Source: Ilyobacter polytropus DSM 2926
GTDB lineage: Bacteria; Fusobacteriota; Fusobacteriia; Fusobacteriales; Fusobacteriaceae
Direction of reading: 5' to 3'
Length of the DNA: 64,000 nt
NCBI RefSeq assembly: GCF_000165505.1
Contig: NC_014633.1
Span: 248,001-312,000, forward strand
The notes beneath the pieces are model-generated. The model made no database searches, was not told the DNA's origin, and saw only the letters and a list, made by a program, of their open reading frames with translations. Position numbers and translations under genes: made by a program. Shown here in pieces: positions 3,821 through 38,790 of the stretch (its first letter is position 1; each line of letters opens with the position of its first letter).

Positions 3821-3839
3821 TATAAAAAAAATATTTAAA

Positions 3840-3910
3840 CTCTGTATGACTGGCGGATAGTGGGAAAAACCCACAGGGATTACAGAGTTAAAAGCCGACC
3901 GCCTGGGCGA
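3840..3910 (+). promoter_or_regulatory. ZTP riboswitch aptamer (pfl motif)
   Basis: The sequence shows the two invariant blocks of this class: TGACTGGCGG (from 3846) and CCGCCTGGGC (about 3899-3908), able to form the GGCGG/CCGCC pseudoknot. The outer stem is CTCTGTA (3840-3846) with TACAGAG (3881-3887), and an internal TGGG/CCCA hairpin lies between. In the family this RNA binds ZTP/ZMP, a signal of low 10-formyl-tetrahydrofolate, and turns on formate and purine genes. It is followed directly by a terminator and then pfl. Confidence 0.93.
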
Positions 3911-3956
3911 ATAGATTACTTGAATGAGTCTATTTGTTCAGGGGGTCTATTTTTTT
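3911..3956 (+). terminator. Riboswitch-controlled terminator before pfl
   Basis: Arms 3911-3924 and 3937-3950 pair at 13 of 14 positions, counting several G-U pairs, and run into six or more T. It begins three bases after the aptamer, fitting ligand-dependent anti-termination. Confidence 0.75.
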
Positions 3957-36396: not shown

Positions 36397-36521
36397 AAAA
36401 AACCCAGGTACTTTACAGAGTGAAAGTACCTGGGTGATTAATCCCATAAACTTTCACTCATAGAAGGCCATTATCGGTGACCAGTAGAAACTCCCGACCA
36501 TATTACGGGATTATATGAGTG
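36397..36521 (-). promoter_or_regulatory. Guanine riboswitch and terminator before purL
   Basis: The minus-strand aptamer (36521 to 36455) has the class pattern CACTCATATAATC at the 5' side, GTTTCTAC in the middle and TTCTATGAGTG at the 3' side; the C in TTCTATG predicts guanine rather than adenine. The terminator follows (arms about 36422-36434 and 36401-36413, then six T). The 3' side of P1, AGTGAAAG, can instead pair with CTTTCACT of the terminator, giving an anti-terminator. Guanine should therefore switch purL off. The aptamer starts only three bases after the fhs stop codon. Confidence 0.93.
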
Positions 36522-36524
36522 ATT

Positions 36525-38189
36525 TTAAAATAGTCCTGTTATTTTTCCGTTTTCATCTATATCTATAAGTTCAGCTGAAGGTTTCTTAGGCAGTCCAGGC
36601 ATATCAATGATATTTCCTGCCATGGCTACTAGAAATCCTGCACCGGCTGAGAGTCTTATTTCATTCACAGTTACTGTAAAGTTTTCCGGTCTTCCTAGAA
36701 GGGCCGGGTTGTCAGAAATTGATTTTTGAGTTTTAGACACACAGATAGGAAGTTCTCCGTATCCGTTTTCCACAATAGTTTTTATTGTTTTCTTTGCCTT
36801 AGGAGAGAATACAACACCGTCGGCACCGTAGATTTCCTTTGCAATTATTTCTATTTTTTCTTCTGGAGAGCTTTCTAAAGAGTATAGAGGAGTATAGTTG
36901 TCCTCGCCTTTTTCGATTTCTCCTATGACAAGTTTTGCAAGTTCTTCTCCACCTGCACCGCCATTTGCCCATACATCGCAGTCGGCTACAGGTACATTGT
37001 GATCTGAGCATACTTTTCTTATAAGGTCAAATTCACTCTCTGTGTCTGTGACAAATCTGTTCATGGCCACAACTACCGGAAGATTGAATTTTTTCATGTT
37101 CTCTATATGTTTTTCAAGGTTTGAAAGTCCCTTTTGAAGGGCATCAAGATCCTGAACTGATAGATCTTTTGCTCCCCCGTGGTGCTTTAGGGCTCTTACA
37201 GTAGCTACCACAACAACACAGTTTGGTGTCAGCCCACCTTTTCTACATTTTATATCAAGAAACTTCTCGGCTCCGAGATCAGCTGCAAAACCGGCCTCTG
37301 TTATAGCAAAGTCAGAAAGTTTGAGGGCTAGTTTAGTAGCTAGCAATGAGTTGCATCCGTGAGCTATATTTGCAAAAGGTCCTCCGTGTATGAATACAGG
37401 AGTATTTTCTAAAGTTTGCACAAGATTTGGTTTTATGGCCTCTTTCATAAGAGCAGCAACTGCTCCCTGAACATTGAGGTCTTTTATTTTTAGAGGCGTT
37501 CCTGCAGTACTATATGCAAAGACCATCTCTCCGATTTTTTCCTTTAGGTCAGCTATAGAGTCAGCCAGACACATAGCAGCCATTATCTCAGAAGCAACTG
37601 TAATCTGGAAAGAATCCTCTCTAGGAATTCCGTTTGCAGTTCCCCCAAGTCCGATGACGATATTTCTAAGAGACCTATCGTTCATATCCATGACTCTTTT
37701 CCATGTAATTTTTGTTATATCTATATTAAGAGTGTTTCCAAATTTTAAGTGGTTGTCGATGCATGCAGATACAAGGTTGTGTGCTACCCCTATAGCATGA
37801 ATATCCCCAGTAAAGTGAAGGTTGATATCCTCCATAGGTATAACCTGGGAATGTCCTCCCCCTGTGGCTCCTCCTTTAATTCCGAATACAGGTCCTAGAG
37901 AAGGTTCTCTCAAGGCGGCAATTGATTTTTTTCCTAACCTGTTTAGAGCCTGAGTAAGTCCTACTGAAACAGTTGATTTTCCCTCTCCTGCAGGAGTAGG
38001 TGTAATAGCTGTTACAAGTACTAGTTTTCCGTCTTCCTTGTTTTCCAGTTTTCTTAGTAAATTAGGATCTACCTTTGCCTTGTACTTTCCGTACTGCTCG
38101 TAGTCATCTTCACTGAGACCGATTGTTTTTGCCACTTCACTGATTTTTAATAACTTGGCTTCTTGAGCAATTTGAATATCACTTTTCAT
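36525..38189 (-). CDS. fhs: Formate-tetrahydrofolate ligase
   Basis: Makes 10-formyl-tetrahydrofolate from formate, ATP and THF, supplying PurN and PurH. The 554-residue protein has the P-loop [11 protein letters not shown] near residue 66, the block [18 protein letters not shown] near residue 93 and the FTGDIHAIG block near 129, typical of the monofunctional bacterial enzyme. GGAGGG precedes the ATG. The gene is preceded by a guanine riboswitch and a short ORF with a second terminator, and followed directly by the purL riboswitch. Together with pfl it routes fermentative formate into purines. Confidence 0.97.
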
Positions 38190-38257: not shown

Positions 38258-38304
38258 TTAAAAAACCTAAGTTCACATTAATTAAAGATTAATGCGTACT
38301 TAGG
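38258..38304 (-). terminator. Second terminator in the fhs leader
   Basis: Minus-strand arms at 38304-38288 (CCTAAGT...CATTAAT type) and 38282-38266 pair at 15 of 17 positions, followed by six T. The stop codon of a short ORF lies at the loop. Confidence 0.8.
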
Positions 38305-38406
38305 CCTTCTATGAAAAAATATATCGAAGTCCACACTTATCCCGTACCATTTGATCTTCAGTTGGCCTATATAGTTGCCCAAAAGTGAAAAAAATGATAA
38401 CAGCAC
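38278..38406 (-). CDS. Putative 42-residue leader peptide upstream of fhs
   Basis: A GTG start follows AAGGAGG at a seven-base spacing, the best ribosome binding site in the leader. The peptide begins MLLSFFSLLGNYIG and ends RRPKYALIFN. Its last codons form the left arm and loop of the second fhs terminator, so a ribosome finishing it would melt that hairpin. I do not recognise the peptide as a known family. It may be a regulatory leader or a small protein; the frame is also open upstream to 38481, but that part crosses the first terminator. Confidence 0.45.
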   Translation of the reverse strand: MLLSFFSLLGNYIGQLKIKWYGISVDFDIFFHRRPKYALIFN

Positions 38407-38433
38407 GTGTAAACCTCCTTCCTCAAAAATCAT

Positions 38434-38566
38434 AAAAATCCGACATTTATCATATATGGAATGAAGTAAATGTCGGGACATGAATAAGTCCGGTCACTTC
38501 ACCCATAGTAGCTAATTTAAGGTTAGCTGTAGAGACTCCCGACCAGATTACGGGATTATACGAGTG
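38434..38566 (-). promoter_or_regulatory. Guanine riboswitch and first terminator before fhs
   Basis: The aptamer runs 38566 to 38500 on the minus strand: CACTCGTATAATC, then GTCTCTAC, then GCTACTATGGGTG, where the C of ACTATG indicates guanine. The terminator has arms CCGACATTTA and TAAATGTCGG (38476-38440) followed by ATTTTT. GTGAAGTGA after P1 can pair with the TTACTTCAT of the terminator as an anti-terminator. Guanine should reduce fhs transcription. Confidence 0.92.
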
Positions 38567-38595
38567 TTACAAATTGCGAATTTCTTTTCTACCAG

Positions 38596-38627
38596 GCCAC
38601 TTTACCACGAAAAGTGGCTTTTGTCAA
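38596..38627 (-). promoter_or_regulatory. fhs promoter with overlapping inverted repeat
   Basis: Minus-strand TTGACA, 17 bases, TAAAGT (-35 at 38627-38622, -10 at 38604-38599). The 8-bp inverted repeat GCCACTTT-N7-AAAGTGGC (38596-38618) covers the spacer and -10, so it could be a repressor operator. Confidence 0.75.
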
Positions 38628-38735: not shown

Positions 38736-38790
38736 TACTTTCACATGGAATATCAAAAATTTCTTTTTTTTGATATTCCATGTGAAAGTA
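38736..38790. repeat. Perfect 24-bp hairpin between fhs and carA promoters
   Basis: The arms 38736-38759 and 38767-38790 are exact reverse complements with a 7-base loop. Neither strand has a proper T run after the stem. The gap 38628-38842 holds nothing else that I can name. Confidence 0.8.

Follow-up and report, generated by a model that had tools for sequence, protein, structure and literature searches.

A guanine riboswitch, a short reading frame and a second terminator in the fhs leader of Ilyobacter polytropus: a probable two-stage attenuator

What is the role of a second intrinsic terminator, one arm of which is the end of a short open reading frame (sORF), behind a riboswitch that already has a terminator of its own? 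This question is raised by the leader of fhs in Ilyobacter polytropus DSM 2926, which lies on the minus strand from 38.6 to 38.2 kb of the window, i.e. of the whole stretch of 64,000 nucleotides analysed here, to which all coordinates refer. The window belongs to a replicon of 961,624 bp in a genome of 3,132,314 bp on three contigs. The gene controlled by this leader is a 554-aa ORF (36525..38189, minus strand) which we take, judging by its sequence, to be fhs, encoding formate-tetrahydrofolate ligase; the initial annotation used the same name. The product of Fhs is 10-formyl-THF, which is consumed by de novo purine synthesis. Homologs of fhs were found in 58 of 61 relatives in a search of the family genomes. 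Directly after fhs on the minus strand follows purL, which has a purine aptamer of its own at its 5' side (36441..36538, minus strand; RF00167, 67.1 bits). This purL leader (L003) uses a direct terminator without an sORF and therewith provides a contrast inside the same genome. Two further observations concern the surroundings. Between the leaders of fhs and of the divergent gene, presumably carA by its sequence, lies a near-perfect long inverted repeat (TACTTTCACATGGAATATCAAAAA / TTTTTGATATTCCATGTGAAAGTA, 38742-38790), and a ZTP riboswitch is found at 3836-3915 on the plus strand (58.6 bits).

Transcription of the leader could start from a candidate promoter at 38599..38627 on the minus strand (TTGACA-N17-TAAAGT with a TG before the -10 element, 10/12 consensus matches). 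The number of promoters in this region is not above that in shuffled sequences, and the main support for the candidate is its position relative to the aptamer. The aptamer itself (38486..38583, minus strand, P1 formed by CACTCGTA/TATGGGTG) matches the purine riboswitch model RF00167 with 60.9 bits (E 4.3e-08, gathering score 37). In the alignment its specificity position is a C (J3/1 'AC' before UAUGGGUG), and judged by this C74 the aptamer is of the guanine type. It is followed by an intrinsic terminator, T1 (38434..38476, minus strand), with a 10-bp stem spanning 38476-38440 (CCGACAUUUA/UAAAUGUCGG, then AUUUUU; -14.8 kcal/mol), which is identical in the leaders L011 and L012. The predicted antiterminator (38456..38506, minus strand) would pair the 3' strand of P1 and the following AUGGGUGAAGUGA (38506-38494) with UUUACUUCAUUCCAU (38470-38456). 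It overlaps P1 as well as the 5' arm of T1, its partner strand touching both the arm and the loop. Taken alone this helix reaches -17.0 kcal/mol, and the equilibrium fold without P1 favours other pairs; only three near-identical sequences carry it, too alike for covariation. The entire leader folds better than its shuffles (z -4.6). A consensus terminator scanner found no terminator in the leader and missed T1 as well as the second terminator described below, because its rules for loop and stem are narrow.

Behind T1 the Shine-Dalgarno sequence (SD) AAGGAGG (38414..38420, minus strand) is placed 7 nt before the GTG at 38406, which opens an sORF of 42 codons (38278..38406, minus strand; VLLSFFSLLGNYIGQLKIKWYGISVDFDIFFHRRPKYALIFN) with its stop TAA at 38280-38278. 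The second terminator, T2 (38260..38306, minus strand; GGCCUAAGU...ACUUAGGUUUUUU), consists of a hairpin at 38306-38266 with the arms CCUAAGUACGCAUUAAU/AUUAAUGUGAACUUAGG followed by U6 and reaches -19.3 kcal/mol. The whole 5' arm of T2 is made of the last codons of the sORF, and the stop codon lies in the loop/3' side. The initial annotation had read this leader as a guanine riboswitch with terminator, then a 42-codon GTG-started ORF with AAGGAGG, the final codons of which form one arm of a second terminator, and each of these elements was found as described. The sORF peptide has no Pfam match and no second copy in the genome. Two congeneric genomes, in which fhs is 97% identical, have an sORF of the same length, 42 codons, whose peptide differs at 0 and 3 positions. 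Furthermore, a segment in the body of the sORF (GUGUGGACUUC, 38326..38336, minus strand), 70-80 nt downstream of the start, is predicted to pair with the SD and the spacer of the sORF. The region 38433-38305 folds better than its shuffles (z -3.9), and this SD-sequestering fold gives z -4.1 to -4.9 in three leaders of the Ilyobacter type. In other genera no such pairing of the SD by the sORF is seen, and the folding of the sORFs there is mostly ordinary. A hidden aptamer between T1 and T2 was considered and rejected, as no Rfam match beyond chance appeared up to E 10, and neither a ZTP nor a THF riboswitch matched the sORF/T2 region even at this threshold.

We read the leaders of fhs across all 61 family genomes and others of the order Fusobacteriales. 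Hairpins of the T2 type, with arms of the CTAAGT..ACTTAG kind and a U-tail, were seen in 31 fhs leaders, which come from seven genera in two families of this order. Of these 31, 29 contain an SD-led sORF (SD core AGGAG, GGAGG or AAGGA) that is 16 codons or longer and whose stop codon falls -5 to +35 nt from the beginning of T2, compared to 1.4% of dinucleotide-shuffled leaders, averaged over all leaders. In the Ilyobacter leader alone, an SD-led sORF would end in T2 by chance in about 3-4% of cases. The 31 leaders share ancestry and are not 31 independent events, and the lineages differ in the length and sequence of the sORF and in its frame through the hairpin. We conclude that the ending of the sORF in T2 is not due to chance. 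The hairpin itself covaries: 94% of pair cells are standard, and the covariation score of 0.367 (0.267 when shuffled) was reached in 0/500 shuffles, with far lower scores for slid versions. In the other genera of the order no leader of this type was found before fhs; one genus has a ZTP riboswitch there (L016), others have nothing recognisable, and the fhs leaders L168/L169 also differ from this type.

The initial annotation had suggested to look for the peptide before fhs in related genomes, and had named a lack of ORF conservation among the points against its proposal; such a lack was not observed. The sORF, its SD, its start and its stop in the terminator are kept across the seven genera, but the peptide drifts: sORF length ranges from 16 to 51 codons, and no peptide motif is shared between genera. 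The stops enter T2 in all three frames. Because the peptide is unconserved and the frames differ, it appears that the act of translation and not its product has been selected. Within genera pN/pS of the sORFs is mostly 0.3-0.9, with one pair at 2.0; such a weak coding constraint would fit a translation without product, and equally a decaying ORF. What persists is a ribosome loading site, a short reading distance and a stop within the terminator. This module can also stand without an intact aptamer. In L021, L027 and L028 sORF and T2 occur without one, and L024 and L025 have kept T2 next to a ruined aptamer and a poor SD. Therefore the second stage is separable from the first.

Is this arrangement limited to fhs? 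A covariance model built from T2 and searched over the order detected purL leaders with purine aptamer, sORF and T2 (L232, L235, L247). It also detected SD-led sORFs that run into or up to a terminator, without aptamer, before a hypoxanthine-PRT-like gene (L220, L228, L231) and before genes of FAD-dependent oxidoreductases (L216, L221-L224, L227); these downstream genes were assigned by Pfam, and L224 and L228 were seen by eye. In the oxidoreductase leaders L221, L223 and L224 the sORF peptide is well conserved. In addition we compiled a census of 55 further purine-aptamer loci. This set is non-random: it consists of loci among the best-scoring matches, of 20 that were chosen to cover different genera and of those in the Ilyobacter genome itself. 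Example genes were named by Pfam and the remaining ones by the similarity of their N-termini. Thirteen of these loci have an sORF stop in the terminator, namely seven purE, five purL (L293 being counted as purL because it resembles L294, a purL leader) and one unassigned gene (L263); three further purE leaders fit with a weaker SD. Sorted by gene, 12 of 20 purE/purL loci and 1 of 35 other loci (among them permeases, guaA, guaB and deaminases) have sORF and terminator, giving a Fisher p of 3e-6, which is optimistic in view of phylogenetic dependence and the hand choice of loci. Several purE leaders (L268, L273, L275, L285) follow the order of the Ilyobacter fhs leader, i.e. aptamer, T1 with U-run, sORF and a second terminator with the stop codon inside, the sequence of this second terminator being unrelated. 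The sORF stage is thus restricted mainly to de novo purine and one-carbon genes. The sole exception in the census outside purE, purL and fhs is L263 (G006:C2:177460-180561), where the aptamer is joined by a 47-codon sORF ending in a terminator. At another locus, L284 (G011:C102:24650-25570), a purine aptamer and two hairpins precede a gene with a pyruvate formate-lyase-like start; this enzyme is the formate source for Fhs.

The initial annotation proposed two serial checkpoints, guanine first and translation second, and this proposal gains support from the recurrence of the layout before purE and purL. The layout of sORF and T2 is real and conserved, and we infer that the sORF is translated, that transcription terminates at T1 and T2 and that a ribosome mediates readthrough; such a mechanism is likely. 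In this way the fhs leader is, with fair probability, a two-stage attenuator, which responds to guanine at T1 and to a race between ribosome and polymerase at T2. With guanine bound, P1 would form, the antiterminator would be blocked and T1 would end transcription; with guanine absent, transcription would continue beyond T1. No antiterminator inside the sORF is conserved across the fhs leaders, and since the sORF segment has no conserved stable sequestering of the T2 5' arm, T2 formation should be the default outcome when the arms emerge from RNA polymerase. Readthrough into fhs would occur only if the pioneer ribosome at the last sORF codons covers or unwinds the 5' arm. T2 would then read a race in which the loading of the ribosome competes with the speed of the polymerase: fhs would be transcribed if the polymerase is slow or pauses (e.g. 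when purine NTP is low) or if loading is fast, while a fast polymerase or poor initiation would lead to termination. In Ilyobacter the transcribed sORF might in addition fold onto its own SD and so shut the loading window after the polymerase has passed, which would sharpen the timing.

That a ribosome can have this effect is known from E. coli, where the efficiency of the tR2 terminator placed 5 bp after a translated stop falls from about 90% to under 10%, and where this repression is lost once translation is removed (PMC4824070). A ribosome takes about 100-200 nt to close the gap to the polymerase and, over the first 100 bp of an ORF, has usually not reached it (PMC4824070). The distance of about 140 nt from the sORF start to the U-run of T2 is within this catch-up range, therefore T2 should sense the loading rate together with polymerase speed. 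In short leaders the outcome depends on dynamics and pausing; a terminator 30 bp after the start codon loses only about 10% of its efficiency to translation, and in pyrBI a pause couples ribosome and polymerase (PMC4824070). By analogy, translation of a 42-codon sORF may do little against T2 unless the polymerase pauses. As to the signal of the second stage, we tentatively consider the NTP level, read through polymerase speed. Low purine NTP would slow the polymerase and favour readthrough, therefore the sign of such a speed sensor would be right for purine genes. A pause signature of purine runs responding to ATP was not adopted, as it is weak overall: purine runs in the sORFs are slightly longer than in gene starts (z 0.94 vs 0.14, p 0.006), the excess is weaker against gene interiors (p 0.05), and the A/G runs of other sORFs are absent from the Ilyobacter sORF.

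Besides this race, it is possible, if doubtful, that the guanine aptamer also or only controls translation of the sORF and that T2 turns this into a transcription decision. Such a relay is suggested by the sequence of the purL leader L235, in which the 3' strand of P1 is directly followed by GGAGG-N4-ATG, opening an sORF of 26 codons with its stop TAA in the terminator. Because P1 adjoins the SD there and no other platform lies between aptamer and purL, guanine, if working, would most simply act via sORF translation. SD-sequestering hairpins precede the sORF also in the g14 leaders (e.g. L019, L022, L127, L129), and in L171/L172 the predicted SD access falls from 0.75-0.79 to 0.11-0.22 when P1 is forced. 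However, the SD hairpin of most g14 leaders does not switch in equilibrium folding, and sORF and T2 are found without any aptamer (L021, L027, L028, L216, L220-L224). In Ilyobacter T1 should already provide guanine control, and control of the sORF SD by the riboswitch was rejected for this leader, because in equilibrium folding the predicted SD access does not differ with or without P1 (0.41 vs 0.37).

A less probable explanation is that the sORF is a remnant or a chance ORF and T2 a backup terminator or a part of a tandem riboswitch platform. The weak conservation of the peptide would agree with this, as would the uses of the hairpin elsewhere: plain CTAAGT..ACTTAG terminators occur in the same genomes (L233, L234, L239, L241), and before guaA and guaB the aptamer is followed directly by a CTAAGT terminator without sORF (L211, L215, L217-L219). 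However, a remnant is difficult to reconcile with SD-led sORFs in 29/31 leaders where 1.4% were expected, and with the recurrence of the layout in purE and purL, where hairpin and peptide sequences are unrelated. The CTAAGT hairpin was also considered as a regulon-specific protein site; this was rejected, since it serves as plain terminator and guaA/guaB platform as well and occurs near plasmid genes. That the stop TAA is contained in C-TAA-G may explain a part of its recurrence. Short hairpins of the type CTAAGTGTA..TACTTAG also recur away from metabolic leaders (L212, L213, L225, L226, L229), on the smaller replicon and elsewhere, often with AACCA just before them, and perhaps represent a repeat or the end of a mobile element.

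It is rather improbable that initiation at the sORF reports fMet-tRNA and hence 10-formyl-THF. Fhs makes this formyl donor, de novo purine synthesis uses it, and a uORF-terminator motif before streptococcal fthC has been given a tRNA-fMet reading (PMC11109978). The feedback sign would be wrong, though, as a low formyl donor would reduce initiation and increase termination, resulting in less fhs, and an antiterminator that a ribosome could break was not found in the fhs leaders. Least of all do we expect the leader peptide itself to act as a ribosome-arrest or regulatory peptide: N-termini are similar within genera and the Lys/Arg share is 0.23 in sORFs vs 0.13 in gene starts, but Lys richness is expected from A-rich sequence, and a conserved peptide as the agent was rejected, since the genera have no motif in common and their sORFs pass through T2 in different frames. 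Attenuation of the amino-acid (trp/his) type was dismissed as well, the sORFs having neither a shared codon run nor a conserved antiterminator.

The race at T2 behind a guanine switch thus remains our preferred reading, and expression of fhs probably requires both a low guanine level and a ribosome already at work on the sORF. For the Fusobacteriales as a whole we can offer a speculative scheme, in which purE, purL and fhs would be controlled by a guanine riboswitch for the free base and then by an sORF-terminator race sensing purine NTP; some lineages would have fused both into a relay from riboswitch to sORF to terminator, and salvage and transport genes would have the riboswitch only. If the mechanism is true, a short leader uses nothing but RNA, ribosome and polymerase to combine two inputs, the metabolite level and the coupling of translation to transcription, in a logical AND. 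It would also be a natural example of an intrinsic terminator gated by translation that has been kept throughout an order and serves a single branch of a pathway; NTP-speed sensing for purines would become directly testable, and annotation of riboswitches alone would leave a second level of control in such leaders unnoticed.

Compared to the transcriptional OFF type of the purine riboswitch RF00167, the fhs leader has the same aptamer and C74 and, by prediction, the same layout of P1, antiterminator and terminator, but a second, putatively translation-dependent terminator is added downstream, and in some relatives the aptamer instead adjoins the SD of the sORF. With the attenuation of pyrBI and pyrE in E. 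coli it shares a short leader ORF which runs into an intrinsic terminator before nucleotide-synthesis genes and, as proposed here, the closeness of ribosome and polymerase as the deciding factor for readthrough. As in pyrBI, where the leader ORF has 44 codons, an SD-led leader ORF is present whose reading covers an arm of the intrinsic terminator. In contrast to these systems the fhs leader is stacked behind a guanine riboswitch, has no defined NTP pause site, carries the sORF stop inside the hairpin and concerns purine and one-carbon genes in the phylum Fusobacteriota. Liu et al. reportedly described, in 2012, synthetic translation-to-transcription adaptors based on tnaC; these likewise convert translation of a leader ORF into transcript elongation, as we propose here, but are engineered and built on the Rho-dependent tna system. 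B12 riboswitches of M. tuberculosis (metE, ppe2) also act on a downstream gene in concert with a translated uORF, but there the SD is masked, stop and start overlap and Rho is possibly involved, and no intrinsic terminator contains the uORF stop (PMC11260477). Leader terminators before one-carbon genes are also known from the Streptococcus fthC uORF motif and the Leptotrichia fhsA motif; in the former the uORF stop lies in P2 and not in the terminator and a purine aptamer is not reported, and the latter is a P1/P2 pseudoknot candidate for which a uORF is not reported (PMC11109978). In the open-access literature we found no description of a leader composed of aptamer, sORF and intrinsic terminator. 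The principles at work in the fhs leader are therefore known from other systems, while their combination is apparently new.
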